From a virus, in IMG/VR virus record IMGVR_UViG_3300036715_001154, positions 1 to 39,041 of that record: a stretch of 39,041 bases of DNA, one strand, 5' to 3'. Below the pieces are notes generated by a model. The model was not told the origin of the DNA, made no database searches, and saw nothing but the letters and a program-made list of their open reading frames with translations. The translations under genes were made by a program, and so were the position numbers. Positions 408 to 30,432 of the stretch are shown piece by piece. Position 1 is the stretch's first letter. Every line of letters begins with the position of its first letter.

Positions 408-3011
408 TTAAAGGGTGCCGAGGTAAGCGCCGCCAAGACTGCCCAAGCCACCGAGCAGTGCGTTATAGCCTGACATTTGACTTTGGTAAGCCGCCATGCC
501 GTAGTTCGCTTGAGCAGTCGCCGCATCGAACAATGGAGCAGGTTGTGCTCCGCTGGTGTAGTAGTTGCTGACGGTCGGCGAAGTGATCTGCGTGCCTGCG
601 CGAAGGGCGTTCAATTCGTTCAGCGGCATGTTGTACATCTGCAACTGCTGGTTCATGTCCTGCTGCGAGGCTTGATTATCGAAGGTCGCAGCAGCCAGAC
701 CTTGTTGGTACAAGGCCGCAGCATTAGAGTTGTCCATCGTCGCCGAGGTCAAGTCCTGGTTGTAGTTGGCCGTGGCGGCTTGATTGAGGGCTTGATCGGC
801 GGAGGTGGCCTGATCGAAGTTATGCGTGAGGTTCGCGTTATTCAAGTTCGTCCCGGCCATCGTTTGGTCGAACTCAGTATTAGCATTGGCGTTGGTGGTG
901 TTCGCCTGCGTGAGGTTCTGGTTATAGACGTTGGTGGCGTTCTGGTTGAGCGTGTTGGTCGCTGTCAGGTTTTGCCCGTAATCCGTCGTCAAGTTGGCAT
1001 TGTTGAGGTTCGTGCCAGTCAAGTTCTGGTTGAACGCTGTGTCCGCGCTGCTGTTCGCCATCTGCGCTGCAGTCAGGTTTTGCCCGTAGTTCGCAGTTGC
1101 ATTAGCGTTGGTGGTGTTCGCCGCGGTTAAGTTCTGCCCATAGTTCGCTGCGGCGTTGGCATTGTTCAGATTGGTGGTCGCCAAGGTCTGATCGAAGTTA
1201 GCCGTGGTGTTGGCGTTCGCCATCTGAGCAGCAGTGAGGTTCTGCCCATAGTTGGCGGTCAAGTTCGAGTTGTTGTAGGCAATGCCGGCCTGCTGCTGCG
1301 CGTAATTAGTGTTCGCGTTGGCGTTGGCGATGTTGGTGTTGGTGACACCTTGCCCGAACAGCGCCGCCTGGTTCTGATTGGCGATGTTGGTCGCGTTTAG
1401 ACCTTGCTGATAATTCGCATCAACCTGATGGTTTTGCAAGTTGGCGTTAGTGATTGCCGCGTCTAGTTTAGCTTTAGCTGCTGTGTCATGTACGCCTGCA
1501 CTCGAAAGGGCTTGCCCAAAGGCGTTCTGAGCGTTCTGGTTGTGCAGGTTTGCCCCTGCCATCCCCTGCGCGTACAGAGCTGCTTGGTTCTGGTTGTAAA
1601 CGGTGTTGACGTCCTTGGCCTGGTTGAAGTTCTGCTGGTTTGCGCCAAGGTAGAAGTTGCCCGCGTTCAGGGCGGTGTTGTTGTTGGCCTGGATCGCTGC
1701 ATTACCGGCATTGAAGGCATTGAGGTCGAATTGCGAGCGATCCAGGCCGAAAGTGTTGTTTGCCGTTTGGCCGGCTTGTGCGAAGGTTCCGCGACCTTGT
1801 GCCTGCGCGAACTGCTGGTTCTGCAACGCCGCCAAGAGCTGGGTCTGCCGCGACTCTTCCTGTCCGCCAGTGAGCACAGCTTGCATCAGCGCATCATTGT
1901 GGGAGCGATTGAGCGCGTCCATCTGCTGGTTGTAGGCCGCTGTTCCGACCTCAACCCCACTGTTAAGCAGTTGCGTGCGCATTTGCTGCGCTTGAAGCTC
2001 GAACTGCGGTTGCAGGCGACTCATGATCGCCGCTTCCACAGCAGGCCGAGTGGAGCTGTCCACTACTGGCACATTGCCAGCATCACCGAAGGTTGTGTCA
2101 ACTTGACCGGGGTTGAAGCTGCCGGTCGGGGCGTTGGTGTTGGAGTGCTGGAGCTGTGCCAAGTACGCGTTTATGTTGGCGTAGGGGCCTGCTTGAAGGT
2201 TGGCAAAGTTGGAAGTATTCGGAGCGTCAACGAACTGCCCTGCGGTGCTTGCAACACCACCGGCGAAGCCATCAGCAATAACCCCCTTGGAGTAGCCACT
2301 GGCAGGCCCAGGTCCACCGACGAAGTTAGAAGTTCCGGGGCCACCGATCAAACTTGCAGGACCAGCGGCAGAGGCATAATTGACAGCCCCTGGCGCTCCG
2401 GTGTAGGAAGCTGCTGCAGGGCCAGAAGTATAGTTAACAGCCCCCGGTGCGCTGACATAACCCGCAGCCCCGGGAGCGGCGGTGTGCTGGACAGCGCCTG
2501 GCGCCGAGGAGTAATTTACAGCTCCGGGAGCGGCTGTGTAGGTAGCAGCATTTGGAGTGCCAACATGAGTCGCAGCATCCGGCGCGCTGTTGTAGTTGAC
2601 AGCCCCTGGCATCGCCGTGTAGCCAACGGCTGCCGGCGCACCGACAAAGGTCGAACCAGCCGGAGCATACTCGGTGGGGTGCGCTGTGGACTGGAACGGC
2701 GTCGAGAGCTGCGTCCCGACAGCATTCAGTTGAGCCTGCCCGGTTTGCAGCAGACTGTTAGTGATGTTCTGCGTCGCGTCCAGCGTCTGCTGCGACGCCG
2801 GAGACAGGTTGGTCGTCTGTGTGTAGTCGCCGACTTGCGGGTTGGCCGGGTCCGCTCCAGCTCGCAACGTGTAGCTGATGTCACCGTAAGGGCCAACTTG
2901 GTTGACCCGATTCATCGCATTGTTTGCGACTGCGGTATCGAGGCTGGCCTGCCCCTGTGCAGTGGCAGCTGCCGCGTAATCAGGCGGTGGTGGGGCGCTG
3001 GGCTTTGACAA
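408..3011 (-). CDS. 867-aa repeat-containing virion/tail protein, TTG start
   Basis: This is an 867-aa protein opening MSKPSAPPPPDYAAAA, an opening seen in phage proteins annotated as tail or tail-fibre-domain proteins. The start codon is TTG at 3011, supported by a strong AAGGAG seven bases upstream; no ATG fits the N-terminus. Residues ~117-233 are 13 tandem 9-residue units of the form P-G-A-V-N-Y-x-S-A. Residues ~320-400 are a Gln-rich helical segment. Residues ~531-782 are 14 tandem 18-residue units built on A-N-Y-G-Q-N-L-T. The C-terminus ends in a Gly-rich segment (GGLGSLGGAYLG). No signal peptide or enzyme motif is visible. It overlaps the acetyltransferase gene by 32 nt in the late operon, between tail and ejection-protein genes. 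The role is inferred as an extended virion component, possibly an ejected or tail-associated rod. Confidence 0.75.
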   Translation of the reverse strand: MSKPSAPPPPDYAAAATAQGQASLDTAVANNAMNRVNQVGPYGDISYTLRAGADPANPQVGDYTQTTNLSPASQQTLDATQNITNSLLQTGQAQLNAVGTQLSTPFQSTAHPTEYAPAGSTFVGAPAAVGYTAMPGAVNYNSAPDAATHVGTPNAATYTAAPGAVNYSSAPGAVQHTAAPGAAGYVSAPGAVNYTSGPAAASYTGAPGAVNYASAAGPASLIGGPGTSNFVGGPGPASGYSKGVIADGFAGGVASTAGQFVDAPNTSNFANLQAGPYANINAYLAQLQHSNTNAPTGSFNPGQVDTTFGDAGNVPVVDSSTRPAVEAAIMSRLQPQFELQAQQMRTQLLNSGVEVGTAAYNQQMDALNRSHNDALMQAVLTGGQEESRQTQLLAALQNQQFAQAQGRGTFAQAGQTANNTFGLDRSQFDLNAFNAGNAAIQANNNTALNAGNFYLGANQQNFNQAKDVNTVYNQNQAALYAQGMAGANLHNQNAQNAFGQALSSAGVHDTAAKAKLDAAITNANLQNHQVDANYQQGLNATNIANQNQAALFGQGVTNTNIANANANTNYAQQQAGIAYNNSNLTANYGQNLTAAQMANANTTANFDQTLATTNLNNANAAANYGQNLTAANTTNANATANYGQNLTAAQMANSSADTAFNQNLTGTNLNNANLTTDYGQNLTATNTLNQNATNVYNQNLTQANTTNANANTEFDQTMAGTNLNNANLTHNFDQATSADQALNQAATANYNQDLTSATMDNSNAAALYQQGLAAATFDNQASQQDMNQQLQMYNMPLNELNALRAGTQITSPTVSNYYTSGAQPAPLFDAATAQANYGMAAYQSQMSGYNALLGGLGSLGGAYLGTL
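666..1421 (-). repeat. 14 x 54-bp coding repeat (18-residue units)
   Basis: Fourteen contiguous 18-residue units run from about residue 531 to 782. The consensus is A-N-Y-G-Q-N-L-T-A-x-N-x-x-N-A-N-A-T, with an aromatic (Y/F) at position 3, Q at position 5 and N near positions 11 and 14. There are no gaps across 756 nt. Eighteen residues equal exactly five turns of an alpha helix, so each unit would present the same face. Confidence 0.92.
2313..2663 (-). repeat. 13 x 27-bp coding repeat (9-residue units)
   Basis: Within the 867-aa protein, 13 consecutive 9-residue units follow each other with no insertions: PAGSTFVGA, PAAVGYTAM, PGAVNYNSA, PDAATHVGT, PNAATYTAA, PGAVNYSSA and so on to PGTSNFVGG. 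Proline begins 12 of the 13 units, an aromatic or His usually stands at position 6 and a small residue at position 9. The fixed period suggests a Pro-rich extended or beta-turn rod. Confidence 0.9.
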
Positions 3012-14979: not shown

Positions 14980-15061
14980 CCAACTCTCATTGCCTAGCGT
15001 GCTGGGCAATGGGGGCAGAGCAATTTCGCACTGTCCACGTTCAATTCACATCGAGGAAATC

Positions 15062-15682
15062 ATGAGCAATACTACGACGCCCAAGGCAGCAAAAACCAAG
15101 GTCATTCCCACTATCTCGGCTGACATTGACGAGGGGATGACAACCCTCACGATCGCCTTCAGCGACGGCACTAAGCTGGAGGTGAAGGTCGATGACCTCA
15201 CCCCAGAGATTCAGGCCTATGCCATGTTTCATGGCCTGAAGCAGAAGCTCGTCGATGCAGGGGCAATTACCCATAGCAAAGAAACCGGACGGTCGGCCAC
15301 GTTGGCCGACAAGAAGAACGCCGTGACTGAGATTTTCAAGCGTATCACCGGACCCGAGGGGAGCTGGAACAAGGTCCGCGAGGGCGCGAGCGCCTCGGGT
15401 GGCCTGCTGCTCAGGGCATTGTGCGAGGTTTACCCGAGCAAGACGGTGGAGCAACTCCGCGAGTGGCTCAAGAGCAAAACTGACGACCAGAAGGCGGCAC
15501 TGAGGGTTTGCCCTGAGGTCGCCGCCATCATCGCACGGCTGAAGCTGGGAGCCGCGAAGGGCGCCCCCGACACAGACGCCATGCTGGCCGAACTGGACGA
15601 CAAGGGCAAGGGTGAGGGTGAGGGTGAGGGCGACGACAAGGGCGACGACAAGGGCAAGGGCGACGACGGAGCGACGGAGTAG
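15062..15682 (+). CDS. Early protein, paralogue A, with acidic low-complexity tail
   Basis: The start is ATG 15062 (206 aa) behind GAGGAAATC; an upstream in-frame extension to 14990 lacks a ribosome site. The N-terminal half contains a beta hairpin (T-T-L-T-I-A-F-S-D-G-T-K-L-E-V) followed by H-G-L-K-Q-K-L. The C-terminal half is helical (L-L-L-R-A-L-C-E-V-Y, then K-A-A-L-R-V) and ends with P-D-T-D-A-M-L-A-E-L-D-D. A Gly/Glu/Asp/Lys tail encoded by short DNA repeats completes the protein. The protein at 17458-18225 shares this whole plan. The family is common in phages of Pseudomonadota and uncharacterised. Confidence 0.8.
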   Translation: MSNTTTPKAAKTKVIPTISADIDEGMTTLTIAFSDGTKLEVKVDDLTPEIQAYAMFHGLKQKLVDAGAITHSKETGRSATLADKKNAVTEIFKRITGPEGSWNKVREGASASGGLLLRALCEVYPSKTVEQLREWLKSKTDDQKAALRVCPEVAAIIARLKLGAAKGAPDTDAMLAELDDKGKGEGEGEGDDKGDDKGKGDDGATE

Positions 15683-17393: not shown

Positions 17394-17443
17394 GTTGGCA
17401 AACCCTCGAAGCCCAGGCGATTACCTAAAGTGTTTGCCGCAAC
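17394..17443 (+). promoter_or_regulatory. Leader hairpin before paralogue B
   Basis: In the 5' leader, GTT-GGCAAAC (17394-17403) pairs with GTTTGCC-GC-AAC (17432-17443): 10 bp with a 2-nt bulge and a 28-nt loop. It ends only a few bases before the GGAAGGA ribosome site of the gene at 17458, so it could influence initiation or mRNA stability. Confidence 0.45.
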
Positions 17444-17457
17444 TGGAAGGAACTGCA

Positions 17458-18225
17458 ATGAGTGACAAGAAGTCGAAGGCCAAGGCCGAGCCATCGACCA
17501 GCAATAAGGCCAAGGCCAGCAAGGCGCTCAAGCCAGCGCAACAACTCCCCGTAACCCAGGTCAACGAACAAGCGCCGAGCGCTGCAGTTCCGACCACTAC
17601 CCAAAAGGAACCCAAAATGACTGAAGCCACCACTCCCGCCAAGGCGAAGAAGCCCGAGACCGTTGTCGAGACCGTCAAGATGCTGAACGGCACAATCTGC
17701 GAATTCGCCGGCAAGCGCAAGATGATCAAAAGTACCAGCATTGTCGATGGCAAGGTCGTCGTGACCCTGAACTTCCGCAACGGTGAGACCCGCATCTTCA
17801 CCGTGCCTGCCAACATGGTGCTGCAATTCGCTGGCCACGGCGCCGAGCAGAAGCTGGGAGACGAGACAGCCGGTGTTGAAGACATTGATGACGCGCTGTT
17901 GGCTGTCGATGACCTCATGGACCGCCTGAACAAGGGCGAGTGGGGCATTCGCCGCGAAGCCGGCGGCATGAGCGGGACGAGCGTGTTGATGAAGGCGCTC
18001 TGTGAGCTGTACAGCAAGCCCGTAGAGGCGATCAAGGCCTTCTTGTCTAACAAGACCCAGGCCGAGAAGCTCGCGCTGCGCAATAACGCGAAGGTCAAGT
18101 TGATCGTCGATCGCCTCGAGGCTGAGAAGGTCAGCAAGAAGGGTGCCGTCGATACGGACGCGCTGCTCGGCCAACTGGACGCGCTCGGCGCAGCGCCCAC
18201 AGAGGAACCCGCAACGACCGCTTAG
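17458..18225 (+). CDS. Early protein, paralogue B, with basic N-terminal extension
   Basis: The start is ATG 17458 (255 aa) behind GGAAGGA. An N-terminal Lys/Ala/Thr/Pro-rich extension (residues ~1-65) is probably disordered and looks able to bind nucleic acid or protein. Residues ~70-245 match the plan of the protein at 15062: a beta hairpin (V-V-V-T-L-N-F-R-N-G-E-T-R-I-F-T-V), F-A-G-H-G-A-E-Q-K-L-G-D, then V-L-M-K-A-L-C-E-L-Y. The segment K-L-A-L-R-N-N-A-K-V and the terminal V-D-T-D-A-L-L-G-Q-L-D complete the match. The role is unknown, but two copies with separate promoters argue for high early demand. Its stop codon sits in the loop of a 7-bp hairpin. Confidence 0.85.
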   Translation: MSDKKSKAKAEPSTSNKAKASKALKPAQQLPVTQVNEQAPSAAVPTTTQKEPKMTEATTPAKAKKPETVVETVKMLNGTICEFAGKRKMIKSTSIVDGKVVVTLNFRNGETRIFTVPANMVLQFAGHGAEQKLGDETAGVEDIDDALLAVDDLMDRLNKGEWGIRREAGGMSGTSVLMKALCELYSKPVEAIKAFLSNKTQAEKLALRNNAKVKLIVDRLEAEKVSKKGAVDTDALLGQLDALGAAPTEEPATTA

Positions 18226-20354: not shown

Positions 20355-20544
20355 AAAGTCCATCTGCCTGCCCGAGACACTGGTGGCGAAGGTGGACCTG
20401 CTGCTGTGGAGCGCCCTAGAAGCCTGCATCCCGCGAGGCGCCTGGCAGAACTACATCGTGGCGCTGATTGAAGCGGATATGCAGGCCCGCGCACAACAGC
20501 CTACGGCAACCAAAGAACTCAAAGGCTGCAATGACTACAATTGA
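20320..20544 (+). CDS. Small putative DNA-binding protein (ribbon-helix-helix-like)
   Basis: ATG 20320 follows GGAGG by six bases. The 74-aa product opens M-G-R-P-L-K-V-I-R-P-V-K-K-S-I-C-L-P-E-T-L-V-A-K-V-D, where a basic strand precedes a helix as in ribbon-helix-helix regulators. It continues I-P-R-G-A-W-Q-N-Y-I-V-A-L-I-E. This is a common small phage family. If it is a dimeric RHH repressor, the inverted or phased repeats in this window are candidate sites; no direct link can be shown. It overlaps the helicase gene by 14 nt. Confidence 0.55.
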   Translation: MGRPLKVIRPVKKSICLPETLVAKVDLLLWSALEACIPRGAWQNYIVALIEADMQARAQQPTATKELKGCNDYN

Positions 20545-21847
20545 CTTAAGAGCCTCAGCAGCACCAGCGCCCAACCCGCACCTGGGCACCCTCAACGCCG
20601 ACCAGGAACAAGCCGTCGGCGCCATCCTCGCATGGATCGAGCAGCCAGGCGAACCCTACTTCGTTTTAAGGGGTAGCGCCGGCACCGGCAAGACCTTCTG
20701 CGTCAAGCACGTTGTCAGCCGCTTCAAGGGCCGTATTGTGTTCACAGCGCCGACCAACAAGGCTACCAAGGTTCTGCGGCAGTCCCTCACCACTGACGAC
20801 TACTCCCCACAATGTAAGACCATCTACTCGCTGCTAGGACTCCGGCTGGAAGCCAACGGCGAGGTCAAGGAGCTGCGCGGCCCGGACAAGGACGATGAGG
20901 TTGATCTTAGCACCTTCCGCTGTGTCGTGGTGGATGAAGGCTCGATGCTCAACCAGTACGTCCTGCAGTTCATTGCTAAAGCCGCAAAGATGCTGCGGGT
21001 TAAGTTTCTGTTCATGGGAGATGCGGCCCAGCTCCCGCCGGTGGGGGAAAGCACCAGTCCCATCTGGAAGCTGGAATGCCCTAGTGCGGAGCTGACCAAG
21101 GTCATGCGTCACGACAACCAAATCCTGGAGCTAGTCACTCGGATTCGGGCGAAGGTGGACCATCCGGCGCCGACGGTGAAGCTGGAGAACAACAACAACC
21201 AAGCCGAGGGCGTGTGGAAGCTCGATCGCGCCGCCTTCAACTGCGCCATCACTGAACAAGCTACACTATTCGCTGAACCAGACAACGCCAAGATCATCGC
21301 ATGGCGCAACATCACTGTGGACGCCTTCAATAGGATGGTTCGTCAGTGCCTGTTTGATGACGCCGCCAAGGCGAAGTGGCTCGCCACAGATCGAGTGCTG
21401 TTCACAGAGCCTGCCAAAGACCTTGACGACGAGCCGATGGCTTCCACTGACGACGAAGGCACCATCACCAGGGTGCTGACAGACTCACACCCGTTCTACA
21501 GCGAGTTCGCGGTCCACCGCCTGTCGATCACGCTGGATAGCGGCAAGCTCGCCACAGCTCTGGTATTGCACCCGCAGAGCCAAGCTGCCTACACCGCGCG
21601 TCTCGTACAACTTTCAGCGGAAGCCAAAGCGGCCAGCCGCAAGTGGAAGGCCTTCTGGGAGTTCCGCGAGGCGTTCCATCAGGTCCGGCACGGCTATGCT
21701 ATCACAGCCCATCGCAGCCAAGGCTCTACCTACAAAAGCGTCTTCGTGGATGTGCGGGATGTGCTGCTGAACCAGAACCGCCAAGAGGCATATCGGTGTT
21801 TGTATGTCGCATGCAGTCGCCCGAAAAAACGGTTGATCCTGACATAG
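20531..21847 (+). CDS. RecD/Dda-type SF1 DNA helicase
   Basis: This 438-aa ATP-dependent 5'-3' type helicase starts at ATG 20531 with AAAGG upstream. Walker A is G-S-A-G-T-G-K-T at 48-55. Motif Ia is T-A-P-T-N-K-A near 72, motif II is V-V-V-D-E-G-S at 132-138 and motif III is G-D-A-A-Q-L-P-P-V-G at 163-172. The C-terminal signature has G-Y-A-I-T-A-H-R-S-Q-G-S-T-Y (UvrD_C_2-type) and the final L-Y-V-A-C-S-R-P-K-K-R-L. Dda-like helicases help start phage replication and clear bound proteins. It ends just before the promoter at 21865. Confidence 0.9.
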   Translation: MTTIDLRASAAPAPNPHLGTLNADQEQAVGAILAWIEQPGEPYFVLRGSAGTGKTFCVKHVVSRFKGRIVFTAPTNKATKVLRQSLTTDDYSPQCKTIYSLLGLRLEANGEVKELRGPDKDDEVDLSTFRCVVVDEGSMLNQYVLQFIAKAAKMLRVKFLFMGDAAQLPPVGESTSPIWKLECPSAELTKVMRHDNQILELVTRIRAKVDHPAPTVKLENNNNQAEGVWKLDRAAFNCAITEQATLFAEPDNAKIIAWRNITVDAFNRMVRQCLFDDAAKAKWLATDRVLFTEPAKDLDDEPMASTDDEGTITRVLTDSHPFYSEFAVHRLSITLDSGKLATALVLHPQSQAAYTARLVQLSAEAKAASRKWKAFWEFREAFHQVRHGYAITAHRSQGSTYKSVFVDVRDVLLNQNRQEAYRCLYVACSRPKKRLILT

Positions 21848-21903: not shown

Positions 21904-22038
21904 ATGCAGCAAAACCGCAGGCTTGAAGCCAATCGTCCGAATGTCACAGGCAACTACCACTTCGCCTGTCCCTTCGACGTCCTATACCTTTCCATCGCAA
22001 TCGCAGGAATCTGCACTTACTGGAGCTACTTCAAATGA
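21904..22038 (+). CDS. Small membrane protein (44 aa), near-leaderless
   Basis: ATG 21904 is ten bases after the -10 box, so the mRNA would have almost no leader and no Shine-Dalgarno. The product has a polar N-terminus (M-Q-Q-N-R-R-L-E-A-N-R-P-N) and one hydrophobic segment (D-V-L-Y-L-S-I-A-I-A-G-I-C-T-Y-W, residues ~24-39). The TGA overlaps the next ATG (22035). The overlap supports it; the missing ribosome site argues for caution. No family is recognised. Confidence 0.5.
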   Translation: MQQNRRLEANRPNVTGNYHFACPFDVLYLSIAIAGICTYWSYFK

Positions 22039-22238
22039 TCAGCCCTGAAACCCAACAGCGTATTGACGAATTGCGGCAGAAAAGCCGCGACAATACCATC
22101 ACGCGGGAAGAGATGCGGGAAGCCTTGACGCTCATGCGCGGTGATCGCGTGCGGGCTGCGGCGACCAGCAAGACCTCGCGGGCCAAGAAACAACCAGTCA
22201 ACTCGGATAACCTGCTCTCCGAATTGGACAACCTTTAA
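22035..22238 (+). CDS. Small conserved phage protein (67 aa) with C-terminal LxELD motif
   Basis: ATG 22035 has GGAG nine bases upstream. The product opens M-I-S-P-E-T-Q-Q-R-I-D-E-L-R-Q-K, continues N-T-I-T-R-E-E-M-R-E-A-L-T-L-M-R-G-D-R-V and a Lys/Arg/Ala-rich segment, and ends N-S-D-N-L-L-S-E-L-D-N-L. This is a frequent, uncharacterised early phage protein. Its C-terminal motif resembles the ends of the two paralogues at 15062 and 17458, suggesting a shared partner. Confidence 0.75.
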   Translation: MISPETQQRIDELRQKSRDNTITREEMREALTLMRGDRVRAAATSKTSRAKKQPVNSDNLLSELDNL

Positions 22239-22269: not shown

Positions 22270-22611
22270 ATGGCACGCAAAACTACAGGCCCCATAGAGA
22301 TCCATATCTATCAAGTGGGGCTTAGCAACAACAAGCAGCCCCGTTGGTATCCTTCGACGGAGAAGTACATCGAAGGCTACCAGCCAGAGGGCTGGGCTTA
22401 TATTGGCCTTCAGCTCGTGGAAATCCCCTTGCCCGATGATTACGACCCTGTGCAGGTGACCATCAGCGCGCTGAAGGCCCAACAGGCCCAAGCCGAAAAA
22501 GACTTCCGAGAGGAAACCTCTACCCGCATGACGCAGATTAACAATCTCTTGGCGCTTGAGATGAGTCCAAGTTCAACAGTGGAGTTTGAAGATGACACAA
22601 TTCCTTTCTAA
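22270..22611 (+). CDS. Protein with SSB-like acidic C-terminal tip (113 aa)
   Basis: ATG 22270 follows AAGGAAC by eight bases. The N-terminal half is beta-rich (I-E-I-H-I-Y-Q-V-G, Y-I-G-L-Q-L-V-E-I) and too short for a full OB-fold SSB. The second half is a helical coil (A-Q-A-E-K-D-F-R-E-E) with Q-I-N-N-L-L-A-L-E. The last residues are V-E-F-E-D-D-T-I-P-F, nearly the D-F-D-D-D-I-P-F tip by which bacterial SSB binds RecQ, ExoI, PriA and Pol III chi. It overlaps the exonuclease gene by 20 nt. I infer it recruits SSB-binding partners; whether it also binds ssDNA is unknown. Confidence 0.7.
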   Translation: MARKTTGPIEIHIYQVGLSNNKQPRWYPSTEKYIEGYQPEGWAYIGLQLVEIPLPDDYDPVQVTISALKAQQAQAEKDFREETSTRMTQINNLLALEMSPSSTVEFEDDTIPF

Positions 22612-23710
22612 ACCCTTCTTCCCGCCAGTCATCGACGCTACCACTCTGGCGTCTTTCCGCTCCTGCCCGCAGAAGGCCTTTCGGTCCTACGTGCAGCACT
22701 GGAAGCCGCAGGCCGAGTCGGTCCACCTTGTCGCGGGAGGGGCCTTCGCCAAGGGGATTGAAGTTGCCCGCAGAGCCTTCTTCGAGGGCGTGCATGAAAC
22801 TCCGATAATCAACTACAATGCCGGCGTGCGCACGGTCGCCTGGGTTGAAGAGGCGGGCAACCCCGTCGGCGACAAAGCCACGGCCGAAGCCCTCGGCCTG
22901 CAGGCCCTCATCGCAAAGTACGGCGACTTCGAGTGCCCGCCAGACTCCGGGAAGTCGCTCACGCGTACCGCTGGCGCCCTGGAGTTCTACTATGAACAGT
23001 ACCCCTTCGGCGAAGACGGCATGGAACCCATCACGCTTGCCAGTGGCCGCAGGGGCATCGAGTTCAGCTTCGCTACCCCCATCGGCATCGACCACCCGCA
23101 GACCGGCGACCCGATCCTCTACGCTGGCAGGGCCGACTTGATCGCTAACTTCAGCAACGGCATTTACATTGTGGATGAAAAGACCACAAGCAGCCTCGGT
23201 CAGAGCTGGTCCCGTCAGTGGGAAATGCGCGGGCAGTTCACCGGGTATATGTGGGCTGCGGCGGAACAGGGGGTGCAAACCACTGGATGTATCGTGCGAG
23301 GGGTCAGCATTCTCAAGACCAAGTACGACACCATGCAGGTTCTAACCTACCGCACTCCCCACGAGATTGACTTGTGGCACAAGCAGACCCTGCGGGACAT
23401 TCACCGCATGATCGCCTGCTGGCGTGAAGGGTACTGGGACTACGCGCTGGATGGAGCCTGCACGGAGTACGGCGGCTGCAGTATGGTCCGGGTATGTAAG
23501 TCCCCGTCGCCGGAGGAATGGCTGCCGATGTACTTCGAGAAGCGGGTTTGGGATCCCCTAGGCCGTGTGGAGAAGACGCAAGAGGCGTGGGAAGCTGAGT
23601 GGGGGTATGAAGCGGTGCCAGCGCGCATGACCCAGGAACAGCGCAACGATGAGCGCCGAGAAGAGCTGGCCGCCGGCTTCGACAGCGCATCGGATAGTGT
23701 GGAAGAGTAA
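22592..23710 (+). CDS. Cas4/RecB-like PD-(D/E)XK exonuclease with probable Fe-S cluster
   Basis: The start is ATG 22592 (372 aa) with GGAG seven bases upstream; a TTG at 22586 is less likely. The nuclease core shows G-R-A-D182-L, I-V-D-E196-K197 and Q215-F-T-G-Y219. This matches the D...(D/E)xK...QxxxY layout of RecB/Cas4 nucleases. Four cysteines, C25 (F-R-S-C-P-Q-K) and C290, C296, C302, are placed as in Fe-S Cas4/AddB enzymes. The C-terminus is acidic. It lies with the SSB-tip protein, Sak4 and an ssDNA-binding candidate, so it probably resects ends in the phage recombination pathway. Confidence 0.85.
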   Translation: MTQFLSKPFFPPVIDATTLASFRSCPQKAFRSYVQHWKPQAESVHLVAGGAFAKGIEVARRAFFEGVHETPIINYNAGVRTVAWVEEAGNPVGDKATAEALGLQALIAKYGDFECPPDSGKSLTRTAGALEFYYEQYPFGEDGMEPITLASGRRGIEFSFATPIGIDHPQTGDPILYAGRADLIANFSNGIYIVDEKTTSSLGQSWSRQWEMRGQFTGYMWAAAEQGVQTTGCIVRGVSILKTKYDTMQVLTYRTPHEIDLWHKQTLRDIHRMIACWREGYWDYALDGACTEYGGCSMVRVCKSPSPEEWLPMYFEKRVWDPLGRVEKTQEAWEAEWGYEAVPARMTQEQRNDERREELAAGFDSASDSVEE

Positions 23711-24430: not shown

Positions 24431-24748
24431 ATGATTGAACAAGCTAAGCACGCGAACAGACTATTTCTTTCTACAGGCCAAAAGTCAGCCAGCCCACCAC
24501 CTGTAGTGGAGAAAGAAATCCCACTTCAACTGCATACACTCGCAGCACATCTCGATCACCTTGACAAGGTTGTGAACACGCTGGAAGACCGCTTACTGCC
24601 TGTCAGTTCGCCACCGACCCCAGAAAACTCGGCGGCGGGTTGTTTGGGGTCATCAGTTCCGTTTGCGGCCTACTTGGAAACACAAGGCTACCGACTGCAG
24701 TCCCTGACAATTCGCCTTGTTGCGGCAACCAATCGCTTGGAGTTCTGA
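24431..24748 (+). CDS. Small coiled-coil protein (105 aa), unknown function
   Basis: ATG 24431 follows the previous stop by one base and has GGGAAGGGG upstream. The product has a helix near residues 28-58 (E-I-P-L-Q-L-H-T-L-A-A-H-L-D-H-L-D-K-V-V) and a Pro/Ser linker. A second helix ends L-T-I-R-L-V-A-A-T-N-R-L-E-F. Two helices joined by a Pro-rich linker are common in small phage early proteins. It stops two bases before the Sak4 start. No motif is recognised. Confidence 0.65.
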   Translation: MIEQAKHANRLFLSTGQKSASPPPVVEKEIPLQLHTLAAHLDHLDKVVNTLEDRLLPVSSPPTPENSAAGCLGSSVPFAAYLETQGYRLQSLTIRLVAATNRLEF

Positions 24749-24750
24749 TC

Positions 24751-25608
24751 ATGGCTGAGTTTGACAGAGTGAGCAAGCTCTCCGACGCCACCCTCCCCGG
24801 TGTTAATGTGCTGATCATGGGTCCAGCCGGCACAGGCAAGACGCACAGCCTCGGGACGCTGGTGGACTCGGGTATCGAGACCTTTGTCCTGGCGCTCGAA
24901 GCCGGACTCGAGTCCCTGTTCGGGTACTGGACGGACCGCGGCTTGCCAATCCCGCCCAACCTTCACTGGCACACCCTCAAGCAAGCTGAAGCGGGCTTTG
25001 CGACAATGATCGAGGATGCCAAGAAGATCAACACCATGTCGCTGGACACGCTGGCCAAGATGCAAGACCCCAACAAGGGCAAGCATAACCAGTTCATCAA
25101 GCTGCTTGAGTGCTTGAACGAATTCAAGGACGACCGGACTGGTCAGTCGTTCGGGCCTGTGGACAAGTGGGGACCGGAGCGTGCGCTGGCCATCGACGGC
25201 ATGACAGGCCTAGGCCGCTGCGCTATGTCGTTGGTGATTGGCGGCAAGCCTGTGCGCTCCCAAAGCGACTGGGGCATCGCCCAGGACACCCTGGAGAAGC
25301 TCCTGCGCATGCTCTGCGATGGGACGAAGTGTCATTTCGTGCTGCTGGCCCACGTGGAGCGCGAGACTGATCAAGTCCTAGGCGGGATCAAGATCGCGGT
25401 GAGCACTCTTGGCAAGGCCCTCGCTCCGAAGATTCCGTCCATGTTCAGTGACGTGATCTTCTGCGTCCGCAATGGCACCACTTGGCAGTGGGACACCAGC
25501 TCCGCCCAGGTGGATGTGAAAACCCGCAACCTGCCCATCAAGGCCGACAACCCGCAGACGTTCGCCACCATACTGGCGAAATGGAAGCAACGGGCTGGGG
25601 TTGCATAA
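24751..25608 (+). CDS. Sak4-type RecA-fold ATPase (recombination)
   Basis: This 285-aa P-loop ATPase starts at ATG 24751 with GGAG eight bases upstream. Walker A is G-P-A-G-T-G-K-T at 24-31, followed by S-L-G-T-L. A Walker B-like R-A-L-A-I-D-G-M-T-G-L lies near residue 146, and a later F-V-L-L-A-H-V-E-R-E segment resembles the RecA-fold sensor strand. Phage Sak4 proteins are reduced RecA-like single-strand annealing factors that work with a phage SSB. The next gene is an SSB candidate and the exonuclease is 1 kb upstream, supporting a complete recombination module. Confidence 0.8.
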   Translation: MAEFDRVSKLSDATLPGVNVLIMGPAGTGKTHSLGTLVDSGIETFVLALEAGLESLFGYWTDRGLPIPPNLHWHTLKQAEAGFATMIEDAKKINTMSLDTLAKMQDPNKGKHNQFIKLLECLNEFKDDRTGQSFGPVDKWGPERALAIDGMTGLGRCAMSLVIGGKPVRSQSDWGIAQDTLEKLLRMLCDGTKCHFVLLAHVERETDQVLGGIKIAVSTLGKALAPKIPSMFSDVIFCVRNGTTWQWDTSSAQVDVKTRNLPIKADNPQTFATILAKWKQRAGVA

Positions 25609-25750: not shown

Positions 25751-26206
25751 ATGTCATCTTTCAATCCCGACCAGTTTCTCGATATGCAAGTCAGCGAGTC
25801 CAACGACACCAAGGTCATTCCGGTGCCGGCGGGTGAGTGGAACGCAGTCATCGAAGGCGTGAAGGTCCGCCCATGGCAAGCCAAGAACGATTCGTCGAAC
25901 GCAGGCCTGGCCCTGGACCTTCAGTGGGGCATCAGCGATCCGGCGGTCCTCGAAGCCGTGCAGCGTGACAAGGCTACTGTCAAGCAGGGCATCATGCTCG
26001 ACTTGACCGAAGGCGGCGGGCTGGATATGGGCAAGGGCAAGAACGTGTCGCTGGGTCGCTTGCGCGAAGCCATCGGCCTGAACGAACCCGGCAAGCCGTT
26101 CAGCTTCTCGATGCTCGTTGGTCGCATGGCCAAGGTCAACGTGACCCACCGTGTTGTCGGCGAGGATATCTTCGCTGATGTGAAGGGCGTGATCAAGTAC
26201 AGCTAA
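25751..26206 (+). CDS. Probable phage ssDNA-binding protein
   Basis: ATG 25751 has GGAG eight bases upstream. The 151-aa product opens F-N-P-D-Q-F-L-D-M-Q-V and has I-P-V-P-A-G-E-W-N-A-V-I-E-G-V-K-V-R-P-W-Q, then L-A-L-D-L-Q-W. It continues M-L-D-L-T-E-G-G-G-L-D-M-G-K-G-K-N-V-S-L-G-R-L-R-E-A. The beta-rich alternation suits an OB fold. This family often follows Sak4 or other annealing factors and is usually annotated as unknown or SSB. It lacks an acidic C-terminal tip (it ends V-I-K-Y-S), whereas the 113-aa protein upstream carries one. A terminator follows its stop. Confidence 0.65.
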   Translation: MSSFNPDQFLDMQVSESNDTKVIPVPAGEWNAVIEGVKVRPWQAKNDSSNAGLALDLQWGISDPAVLEAVQRDKATVKQGIMLDLTEGGGLDMGKGKNVSLGRLREAIGLNEPGKPFSFSMLVGRMAKVNVTHRVVGEDIFADVKGVIKYS

Positions 26207-26384: not shown

Positions 26385-26504
26385 GTGAGCATTAAGACGA
26401 GGTCGGTAGAGACGTTGACTTGGGTGGGGGTAGGCAAACCCCTCCCGAGGGTGTTTCGACGCCATGTTGCCCCCATTCCGTCCATCGGCGCACCCCTCCC
26501 ATAG
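26385..26504 (+). CDS. Tentative small basic ORF (39 aa) after the large hairpin
   Basis: GTG 26385 has GGAG five bases upstream in a context (AAACTTGGAGTGGCG) resembling the AAACTGGAGTGGCA sites at 18457 and 19197. The product would open with the residues S-I-K-T-R-S-V-E-T-L-T-W-V after the initiator and end in a basic, Pro-rich R-R-H-V-A-P-I-P. The length is too short to be sure, and the bases around it show no other support. The rest of 26365-26541 shows nothing I can name. Confidence 0.25.
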   Translation: MSIKTRSVETLTWVGVGKPLPRVFRRHVAPIPSIGAPLP

Positions 26505-26541
26505 TAGTCCCCATTCCCAACCCCCCGGATCGGCATATTTT

Positions 26542-27885
26542 ATGACCCTAATACTTCCTCGGACTTCAATCAAGCTTTCCCCAGCACGACAGCGACAGGA
26601 ATTCGATCCCCAAAAGCTGGAGGAACTTCGCGCCAGCATTGAGCTGAACGGCTTGCTGCACGCGCCAGTGGTTCGTCGAACAGGCGAGGGCTTCACGCTT
26701 GTGGCGGGTGAGCGCAGGTTGAAAGCGATGGCTGATCTGGAAACTCTGGGCGTGCCCATTCGCTACAATGGCCAAGCGCTCGAACCTGGGATGGTAGCCG
26801 TGACCGACTTGGGCGAACTCTCAATACTTGAGGCTGAAGAGGCTGAACTTGATGAAAACCTCAAGCGAGCTGATCTTACGTGGCAAGAGCACTCCGCTGC
26901 TGTCGCTCGACTTCATGACCTACGAAGAGAGCAAGCCGTTCTCAAGGGAGCTGTACACACGGTTGCTGATACGGCGCGGGAAGTCTTGGCTACCGAGGAT
27001 GTATCAGGAAGTCCCGGCGAAAGCGTCCGCCGAGAGATATTGGTCAGCAAGCACCTCGACAACCCTGCCATCGCCAAAGCCAAAAGCGCAGACGAAGCCT
27101 TCAAAATTCTTCGCAAGGCTGAGGAAACCACCCGCAACGTCGCGCTTGCTGCAACAGTTGGTGCAACGTTCAACGCAGACAAACACACGCTGCTGAACCG
27201 GGATTGCCTGGCCTGGATGATGGAACCCCAGAATGCAGAAAGATTTGATGTTATTTGTACTGACCCTCCTTACGGCATGGGGGCTGATGGCTTCGGTGAC
27301 GGAGGGGGCAAACTCAGCGGCATCGAACACCGCTATGACGACTCTCCAGAAGCATGGGCCGCCCTCATGCAACCCTGGACCACCTGGTCCTACCGGGTCT
27401 GCAAGCCTCAAGCCCACGCCTACGTCTTCTGCGACATTGACAACTTCCACCAGCTCCGAGACTGGATGCGTGCCGCCGGATGGTATGTCTTCCGCACTCC
27501 GCTGATCGTCCACAAGCTCAACAGCGGGCGCGTTCCCTTGCCTGACCAAGGCCCGCGTCGTTGCTGGGAGGCGATCCTCTACGCTATCAAAGGAAAGAAA
27601 AATGTCACTCACATTTATCCTGATGTCATCCCCGTCGCAGGGGATGAGAATCTCACACACGGAGCACAAAAGCCAGTCGCCCTCTTCCAAAATCTTCTTC
27701 AACGGTCAGTTCTGCCCGGAGACGCGGTGCTGGACTGTTTCGCTGGAACTGGCCCGATCTTCGAAGCTGGGCACACTTTTAAGTGCTCTGTCACAGGCCT
27801 GGAACTTAACCCGGAATACTATGCGCTGAGCCTCCAGCGGATTCGGCAACTCAAAGCGCTGGAAGCGCCGGGGACACTGGCGTGA
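26542..27885 (+). CDS. ParB-like domain fused to DNA methyltransferase
   Basis: The start is ATG 26542 (447 aa); the upstream in-frame extension to 26464 is Pro/Ser-rich and has no site. Residues ~25-60 carry a ParB/Sulfiredoxin-type core (L-N-G-L-L-H-A-P-V-V-R-R, then F-T-L-V-A-G-E-R-R-L-K-A-M). The methyltransferase follows: T-D-P-P-Y at ~240-244 (motif IV) comes before F-A-G-T-G at ~400-404 (motif I). This is the beta-class order found in CcrM-like and N4-cytosine enzymes. L-E-L-N-P-E-Y near the end supports AdoMet binding. The product probably marks phage DNA against restriction, or switches gene timing; target sequence unknown. Confidence 0.88.
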   Translation: MTLILPRTSIKLSPARQRQEFDPQKLEELRASIELNGLLHAPVVRRTGEGFTLVAGERRLKAMADLETLGVPIRYNGQALEPGMVAVTDLGELSILEAEEAELDENLKRADLTWQEHSAAVARLHDLRREQAVLKGAVHTVADTAREVLATEDVSGSPGESVRREILVSKHLDNPAIAKAKSADEAFKILRKAEETTRNVALAATVGATFNADKHTLLNRDCLAWMMEPQNAERFDVICTDPPYGMGADGFGDGGGKLSGIEHRYDDSPEAWAALMQPWTTWSYRVCKPQAHAYVFCDIDNFHQLRDWMRAAGWYVFRTPLIVHKLNSGRVPLPDQGPRRCWEAILYAIKGKKNVTHIYPDVIPVAGDENLTHGAQKPVALFQNLLQRSVLPGDAVLDCFAGTGPIFEAGHTFKCSVTGLELNPEYYALSLQRIRQLKALEAPGTLA

Positions 27886-28088
27886 ACGTGGGACTGACAA
27901 GTCGGCGCTATAAGCAATGCGATAGCTGGGGGCCTAGGCCGTCCTGCCTCGACGCTGCCTACGAACGCCGCGCTGTCCACGACGGGCTTATTGCAAAGCC
28001 GCTCTGGCCAGAGAACAAGCTATACTTAGAACATATTGCAGGAGCCGAAAATGCCAACAATAAGGCCGGTGGGGCCATGCCCAGCTAA
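27882..28088 (+). CDS. Small protein (68 aa) between methyltransferase and polymerase
   Basis: GTG 27882 overlaps the methyltransferase stop (GTGA) with GGGGAC upstream, and the ORF runs 38 nt into the polymerase gene. The product has D-S-W-G-P-R-P-S-C-L-D-A-A-Y-E-R-R-A-V-H-D and P-L-W-P-E-N-K-L-Y-L-E-H-I, a pattern I have met in small phage proteins next to replication genes. The helical core and tight overlap favour a real gene. Function unknown. Confidence 0.55.
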   Translation: MNVGLTSRRYKQCDSWGPRPSCLDAAYERRAVHDGLIAKPLWPENKLYLEHIAGAENANNKAGGAMPS

Positions 28089-30432
28089 GATTATGATTGT
28101 TGGGGAATACCCCAGCATGAACGACGAGGCTGAAGGCGTGCCCTTTGCAGGGTGGACAGGGACGGAGTTCGGGAAGATGTTGTCGGAGGCGGGCATCCTG
28201 CGCGGAGCGTGTTTTCTCACAGCGGTCGTGCGAGTGCGACCGCCGGCCAACTCGCTGGACTCGTTCATCGCCAAGCGCAAGATGGACATTACACCGCAGC
28301 ACGCGGCTGTACGCGACAAGATGTGCCTGCCCCCGGTATGGGAAGGCATTGACCTGCTGAAGCGCGAGATTGAGATGTGCAGGCCGAACGTCATCATCGC
28401 CTGCGGGAATCTTGCGATGTGGGCGCTGACAGGCAACTGGGGGATTACGAGCTGGCGCGGCAGTGTCATGCAGACGGACCTCGACCTCGCGCTGCCCTAC
28501 AAGCCCAAGGTCGTCGCTGCCTACGCTCCGGGGATTGTCATGCGGCAGTGGAGCTGGCGGCAGATCCTAGTCCGGGACTTACGGCGGGCGGTCAAGGAGT
28601 CACTCAGCGTGGAGTATTTGCGCCCCCAATATCGCTTCGTATTGCGCCCCCAATACTCCACAGTCATCCAGTATTTGCACTTGCTCCTACGAGCGGTCGA
28701 AGCCAGGCCCACCAAGCTCGCTGTGGACATTGAGACCCGGGCTGGGCACATCGCCTGCATCGGCGTCGCCTGGAGCAAGCTTGAAGCCTTGTGCATTCCG
28801 CTGATGTGCGTCGAGCGCCCGGAAGGTTATTGGCCGTTAGATCAGGAAGTCGAGGTAAGCTTTTTACTCTACAAACTGCTCACCCATGCGAACGCTGTGG
28901 TCATAGGCCAGAACTTCTCATACGACGCGCAGTACTTTCACAGGTGGCTGTGCTTCATCCCTCGCCTTGTACGCGATACCATGATTGCGCAGCATTGCTG
29001 CTTCAGCAATATGCAAAAGAGCTTGGACTTCCTGAGTTCGATGTACTGCGAAAGCCATCTTTACTGGAAGGAAGACGGGAAGACCTGGGACGAGAAGACT
29101 GGAGAGGACCAGCTCTGGGAGTACAACTGCATGGACGCAGTTATCACCTACGAAGTAGATGAGGTCGAACAGAAAACAGTGGCGACTATGGGCCTGCAAG
29201 CGGTCCACGACTTCCAGCAGAAGCTCTTCTGGCCAGTGCTTCGCACCATGAACTACGGTATTCGAGTGGCTGCTGCCAAGCGTGGGGAGTTTGCCATGCG
29301 ACTCAGCGACGAAATAGCCGCCCGCGAACAGTGGCTAATCGACGTTATCGGCCATCCTCTGAATCCCGCCTCACCATTACAAATGCAGGAGCTTTTTTAT
29401 GGACAACTTGGTTTTAAGCCCATCATCAATCGCAAGTCTGGAACAGTTACTTGCGACGACGAAGCCCTTGGAAAACTTGCTGATCGCGAACCTCTCGTTC
29501 GACCTTTGGTCCGCAAGGTTCTTGAACTGCGAAGTCTCAACGTGTACCTTTCGACGTTTGTCAACGCGCCTCTTGACTCTGATGGACGTATCCGATGCTC
29601 TTTTAACATCGCTGGAACCGAAACTTACAGATTCAGCTCAAGCAAGAATGCATTCAGCAGTGGCCTCAATCTTCAAAATATACCACCTGGCGGTGAAACA
29701 GACGGAGGAGAACTACAGCTCCCTAACATTCGAGAACTTTTCATTCCAGACGCCGGCTGCGAGTTCTTCGACATTGACCTCAACAGCGCAGACCTCTCTA
29801 TTGTTGTCTGGGAAGCTGACGAGTCCGAAGCTAAAGCCATCCTCCAAAGCGGAGAAGACTTCTACTCCGTCGTCGGAAAAGAGTTCTACAAAGACCCGGG
29901 GTTCAGCAAGAAAGATCCCCGTAGAAACCGATTCTTCAAGCCGTTTTGCCACGGCACAAACTACCTTGGCACAGCAAAAGGTTTGGCCGAGCGGCTCGGC
30001 ATCAGCGTCCACGAAGCGGACCGCACGCAAAAATGGTACTTCGGGAAATTCCCAGGAATAAAACGCTGGCAAGAAGACATCAAGGATCAGGTTTACAAGC
30101 GCCGCATGGTGCAGAACGTGTTCGGCTATCGAACCTACTACTTCGATCGCATCGAGGGCACGATCTTCAATCAGGCGATTGCTTGGATTCCCCAGTCCAC
30201 CATCGCTTGCCTCATCAACCGCGCTTACGTCAACATCGACGCCAACCTACCGCAGGTCAAGGTTCTCCTACAGGTTCACGACTCGCTGGCCGGACAGTAC
30301 CCGATCGCCGGAGCCGAGGCCACTCGCAAGGCGATCCTGGCCAACGCCTCCATCACGCTGCCCTACAGCGATCCCTTGACAATCGGGGTTGGCTTGAAGA
30401 CCAGCACCTCTTCCTGGGGGGCCTGTGGCTAG
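28051..30432 (+). CDS. Uracil-DNA-glycosylase-like domain fused to family A DNA polymerase
   Basis: The start is ATG 28051 (793 aa) with GGAG seven bases upstream. Residues ~10-185 resemble a family 4/5 UDG (G18-E-Y-P-S, G-V-P-F-A-G-W-T-G, C-G-N-L-A-M-W-A-L). The H-P-S segment that normally completes the active site reads Y-A-P-G-I-V-M-R, so activity is doubtful. The 3'-5' exonuclease has D226-I-E228, N-F-S-Y-D-A and Y-x3-D (Y-N-C-M-D-A). Polymerase motif A is D574-I-D576-L, motif B is R-R-N-R-F-F-K-P-F-C-H-G-T-N-Y-L and motif C is V-H743-D744-S. This is the replicative polymerase. A short L-R-P-Q-Y unit is duplicated in the linker near 28614-28655. Confidence 0.93.
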   Translation: MPTIRPVGPCPAKIMIVGEYPSMNDEAEGVPFAGWTGTEFGKMLSEAGILRGACFLTAVVRVRPPANSLDSFIAKRKMDITPQHAAVRDKMCLPPVWEGIDLLKREIEMCRPNVIIACGNLAMWALTGNWGITSWRGSVMQTDLDLALPYKPKVVAAYAPGIVMRQWSWRQILVRDLRRAVKESLSVEYLRPQYRFVLRPQYSTVIQYLHLLLRAVEARPTKLAVDIETRAGHIACIGVAWSKLEALCIPLMCVERPEGYWPLDQEVEVSFLLYKLLTHANAVVIGQNFSYDAQYFHRWLCFIPRLVRDTMIAQHCCFSNMQKSLDFLSSMYCESHLYWKEDGKTWDEKTGEDQLWEYNCMDAVITYEVDEVEQKTVATMGLQAVHDFQQKLFWPVLRTMNYGIRVAAAKRGEFAMRLSDEIAAREQWLIDVIGHPLNPASPLQMQELFYGQLGFKPIINRKSGTVTCDDEALGKLADREPLVRPLVRKVLELRSLNVYLSTFVNAPLDSDGRIRCSFNIAGTETYRFSSSKNAFSSGLNLQNIPPGGETDGGELQLPNIRELFIPDAGCEFFDIDLNSADLSIVVWEADESEAKAILQSGEDFYSVVGKEFYKDPGFSKKDPRRNRFFKPFCHGTNYLGTAKGLAERLGISVHEADRTQKWYFGKFPGIKRWQEDIKDQVYKRRMVQNVFGYRTYYFDRIEGTIFNQAIAWIPQSTIACLINRAYVNIDANLPQVKVLLQVHDSLAGQYPIAGAEATRKAILANASITLPYSDPLTIGVGLKTSTSSWGACG

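Follow-up and report, generated by a model that had tools for sequence, protein, structure and literature searches.

A small phage protein that is not an OB-fold SSB ends in the acidic tip of bacterial SSB, and its family bears this tip more often than chance would provide. In bacteria the SSB C-terminal tip (SSB-Ct) is a docking signal of central importance for maintaining the genome; in E. coli SSB it reads DDDIPF, and its partners include ExoI, RecQ, PriA and Pol III chi. We propose, with a probability of about 0.5, that the phage protein is a tip carrier that would dock in the SSB-Ct pockets of host proteins, either to recruit them or as a decoy. The window analyzed here is an entire virus record of 39,041 bases, which may or may not span a complete genome.

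The tip carrier (113 aa) is encoded at 22270-22611 on the plus strand by an ORF that starts with ATG and has a ribosome-binding-like stretch, AAGGA, ~8 bases 5′ of it. As the sequence-only reading had claimed, its translation ends in V-E-F-E-D-D-T-I-P-F (22579-22608, plus strand; C-terminus TVEFEDDTIPF), an acidic tip closing on I/L-P-F with a free C-terminal Phe, as in bacterial SSB. A PD-(D/E)XK nuclease (exonuclease; 22592-23710; PF12705, E 5.4e-9; phrog_1218, E 4.1e-13) follows on the same strand, and its likely ATG at 22592 lies inside the tip codons in a different frame, so that the last codons of the tip carrier overlap the nuclease start. The cluster, also on the plus strand, begins upstream with a Dda-like SF1 helicase (20468-21847; phrog_325, 1.7e-89; PF13604, 1.4e-20), which is followed by a 67-aa protein (22035-22238), the tip carrier and the nuclease. 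Further downstream are a Sak4-like RecA-fold ssDNA annealing protein (24640-25608; phrog_124, 5.8e-23; PF13479, 4.1e-10), the coding start of which is probably the later ATG at 24751, and a predicted OB-fold protein (25751-26206).

Several other genes of the window have notable features. The 67-aa protein has homologues in 155 of 166 related loci, most of which end in a conserved C-terminal DxLLxxL; 127 of the 155 have LL among their 12 final residues, and this end resembles another short motif for docking. Similar stretches, DTDAMLAELDD and DTDALLGQLDAL, are found near the C-termini of two more window proteins (14990-15682 and 17395-18225). A family A DNA polymerase (28036-30432; PF00476, 1.2e-42) carries an N-terminal uracil-DNA-glycosylase domain (PF03167, 1.7e-16), an N6/N4 DNA methyltransferase is fused to a ParB N-terminal domain (26464-27885), and the virion-gene half includes an 867-aa protein on the minus strand (408-3011) that consists mostly of degenerate repeats (APGAVNY..., NANxTxNYxQNL...).

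The body of the tip carrier does not resemble SSB. It matched no Pfam family above the cut-off, and PF00436 (bacterial SSB) had no match anywhere in the window record. The AF2 model (mean pLDDT 74) contains β-strands at residues 9-19, 22-28 and 42-53, a long helix at 60-97 and a disordered tail at 98-113; confidence is high in the helix (94-98) and low in the sheet region (49-69), and past residue 97 there is no secondary structure, with a pLDDT of ~66 in the last two blocks. The tip is thus preceded by a predicted flexible tail. The helix is amphipathic with a period of ~3.6 (p 0.02), a pattern compatible with self-association. Since neither profiles nor the model revealed an OB fold or an SSB family, the protein as modelled is not an OB-fold SSB and is composed of a sheet, one long helix and an unstructured tail, in agreement with the earlier claim.

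Direct homology searches with the 113-aa protein, by tblastn and peptide patterns against cultured-phage records and IMG/VR, returned no match, and searches with its relatives recovered only themselves. As the protein evolves too fast for direct homology, we collected relatives by synteny through the adjacent nuclease, which gave 166 distinct related viral loci, and grew a family profile from the ORFs upstream of the nuclease across these loci. The resulting family has 57 members, mostly located between helicase and nuclease, whose predicted architecture is a small β-sheet followed by a long, amphipathic helix and then a tail that is disordered; they are about 13-24% identical to the window protein in pairwise comparison. 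In four members an extra C-terminal domain of ~100 residues replaces the tip (L158:338-1039, L206:4797-5498, L143:1910-2641 and L017:2799-3431). The best library match was phrog_2479, a group of phage proteins with no recorded function: it is similar in size, and nine of 26 members matched it, the best at E 5.8e-11, whereas the match of the window protein is weak (E 0.0025). Profile matches in Pfam, NCBIfam and PDB were rejected as weak coiled-coil or chance similarities. Foldseek of the model against viral models found only uncharacterized phage proteins, and VIA-align gave Z under 5. phrog_2479 was not found in 369 genomes of one bacterial class and gave no prophage or host information, and none of the four MAG contigs from a genome contig scan encoded a tip protein.

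We defined a tip as an ORF end of [ILVM]P[FWY] with at least two acids in the six residues before it. By this definition, 14 of the 57 family members end in a tip, compared with 8 of the 12,443 other ORFs (Fisher 9e-29, a value to be taken as a guide only, since homologues lack independence and the ORFs were listed mechanically). The variants within the family are DDTIPF, FDDIPF, DDDIPF, DLDIPF, DDDLPF, DNDIPF, SDDIPF, DDLPF and DDSIPF. Shuffling the 20 C-terminal residues of all 57 members, over 5,000 trials, gave a mean of 0.02 tips and a maximum of 1; a null model based on internal positions predicted 0.006 tips in 57 members. The tip on this family is more than chance. The remaining 43 members lack it, several of them ending in decayed look-alikes (FEDVPA, SDDNTHF, PDDQDLI), and those of their records that were read whole contained no substitute tip-bearing protein, which argues that the tip is dispensable for many relatives.

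The tip comes and goes among relatives and is under selection. On a tree of the adjacent nucleases, which is a quick LG+G4 tree with some long branches, the tip needs 11 state changes, at least 9 of which are forced by well-supported branches. It is kept among members that are ~20% identical. In the close pair L253 and L254, the last three codons read ATT CCC TTC and ATA CCG TTT, so that I-P-F has changed throughout by synonymous substitution, and the last 25 codons contain eight synonymous changes, the stop among them, and one amino-acid change. Enrichment, retention across divergence, the state changes and the synonymous-only change of I-P-F together point to selection on the tip. An origin as an artefact of the nuclease-start overlap was ruled out, because seven tip genes (L092, L093, L103, L241, L253, L254 and L297) have no such overlap, their stop codons being separated from the start of the nuclease by hundreds to thousands of bases. 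The sequence-only reading had asked whether the tip is conserved in homologues, and the answer is divided: members that have diverged strongly retain it, but 43 of 57 are tipless. Its presence is conditional, and it has been gained or lost repeatedly.

Tips also occur on other proteins in these neighbourhoods. Small proteins of two unrelated types, encoded immediately upstream of the nuclease, end in SSB-like tips, one type in L126 (5232-5501) and L260 (2270-2596) and the other in L154 (1477-1752) and L184 (1215-1724). L140 encodes a true PF00436 SSB ending in DSDIPF ~2 kb upstream of the nuclease. Tips were not found on the potential phage partners themselves, with none among 99 Dda homologues and none among 152 Sak4 homologues.

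The likely ssDNA-coating protein of the window is the product of 25751-26206, for which AF2 gave an OB fold (pLDDT 89.6). Its nearest PDB structure is PrgE, the OB-fold DNA-binding protein of plasmid pCF10 (8s4t, Foldseek E 2.6e-5; 8s4s, Z 11.2 over 113 residues, 3.5 Å); the predicted folds are alike at 15% identity, and this likeness does not concern the tip protein. It is predicted to be an OB-fold ssDNA-binding protein, and 5 of 17 members of its family match DUF669 weakly. It ends in KGVIKYS, and no tip occurs among its 137 homologues, which upholds the earlier description of a tipless candidate. Canonical SSB was detected neither in the window nor in 28 of the 30 records that were searched; of the remaining two, one gave a sub-threshold SSB match. 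The earlier proposal that the phage splits ssDNA coating and partner recruitment between two proteins is therefore supported as anatomy, the OB-fold protein being tipless and the tip standing on the 22270 family, but the absence of the tip from 43 of 57 members means that it is not an essential half of the phage SSB system.

In the mechanism we propose, the small protein would display a DDTIPF-COOH docking peptide on a flexible tail, preceded by a long helix that probably oligomerizes, physically apart from the protein that coats phage ssDNA. The peptide may dock in the SSB-Ct pocket of host proteins of the ExoI, RecQ, PriA, RecO and Pol III chi class, and the docked partners would be either kept off host SSB or delivered to the recombination complex of the phage. 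If the protein does oligomerize, the display of several tips together would bind with greater avidity than one peptide. The theft of host SSB partners, which the sequence-only reading had raised, is plausible, and the sequence fits both decoy and recruitment. A host target is favoured over a phage partner because the tip is repeatedly gained and lost beside conserved phage partners: Sak4, Dda and the OB-fold protein span the whole set, and only a quarter of the family has the tip. It is also favoured because the rest of the tip carrier evolves very fast, and because the tips are closer to the bacterial SSB consensus DDDIPF than to the phage-specific NDYPPF of HK620.

The same peptide might instead serve phage recombination in trans, the carrier standing in for the missing tail of the 25751 protein and binding the phage Sak4, Dda or nuclease; its body would then contact the OB-fold protein and bring these partners to coated ssDNA. 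The tip is placed directly upstream of the nuclease, Sak4 adjoins the tipless OB-fold protein in the same cluster, and in HK620 both the binding of Sak4 to coated ssDNA and the stimulation of annealing depend on the last six residues of the SSB, NDYPPF (PMC5928155). This HK620 tail, which binds a phage protein, offers by analogy a working precedent that counts against host partners, as does the tipless majority of 43 in 57. A conserved phage partner, however, should require the tip constantly, whereas the tipless relatives also have Sak4, Dda, nuclease and OB-fold protein, and no other tip protein was present in the whole records read; moreover, the window Sak4 and OB-fold protein are not closely linked by sequence to those of HK620. 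We regard a phage target as possible yet rather doubtful.

Two further explanations do without a dedicated carrier. If the 22270 protein were a divergent ssDNA-binding protein of non-canonical fold, the tip would be its normal SSB tail, in keeping with its place in a replication-recombination cluster and with the tipped PF00436 SSB of L140. This is unlikely given the three strands and long helix, the failure of profiles and model to indicate an SSB family or OB fold, and the existence of a separate OB-fold candidate. Alternatively, the tip may be a sporadic linear motif of no important function, arising on an acidic disordered tail by chance drift or as a side-effect of the nuclease start. Its loss from most members, the decayed look-alikes and, in the window, the overlap of tip codons with the nuclease start would fit such an origin, but chance gives at most ~0.02 tips in 57 members against the 14 observed, many tips have no nuclease overlap, the last three codons of L253 and L254 change only synonymously, and tips recur on unrelated proteins. 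Drift is thus highly improbable and already largely refuted by the present results.

Host docking by the tip carrier, if correct, could extend to a whole class of phage proteins that mimic the SSB tip. These would be small, would not coat DNA, would have gained the tip repeatedly and convergently on unrelated scaffolds, and would seize or block host SSB-centred repair and replication proteins; we consider such a class only slightly short of an even chance. The tip motif itself is already known, but a dedicated non-SSB carrier appears new within the literature searched: we found no description in the open-access papers covered by the search. The SSB C-terminal tip is a studied antibacterial target (PMC5872125), and a natural phage protein that presents it without SSB would offer a probe or inhibitor of the SSB hub that needs no design, and would show phages to be capable of separating ssDNA coating from the recruitment of partners.

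The system resembles, and departs from, known arrangements. Like bacterial SSB-Ct, the 22270 protein has acids followed by I/L-P-F, a free C-terminal Phe and a flexible tail, but here the carrier is not an OB-fold protein and the tip is detached from the ssDNA coater. HK620 encodes, beside Sak4, a DUF669 SSB, HkaK, ending in NDYPPF (PMC5928155), an end that we confirmed by direct reading of the sequence. HK620 and the window have in common a Sak4 module with an ssDNA-binding protein of OB type, and both encode an SSB-like tip. The SSB of HK620 bears the tip itself, whereas in the window the OB-fold protein is tipless and DDTIPF stands on a separate protein. In the PriB-SSBc chimera, the SSB tail placed on PriB enhanced ssDNA binding by PriB and stimulated PriA (PMC8509808). 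This chimera likewise has the SSB tail on another protein but, unlike the 22270 protein, it is artificial, and PriB is an OB-fold protein.
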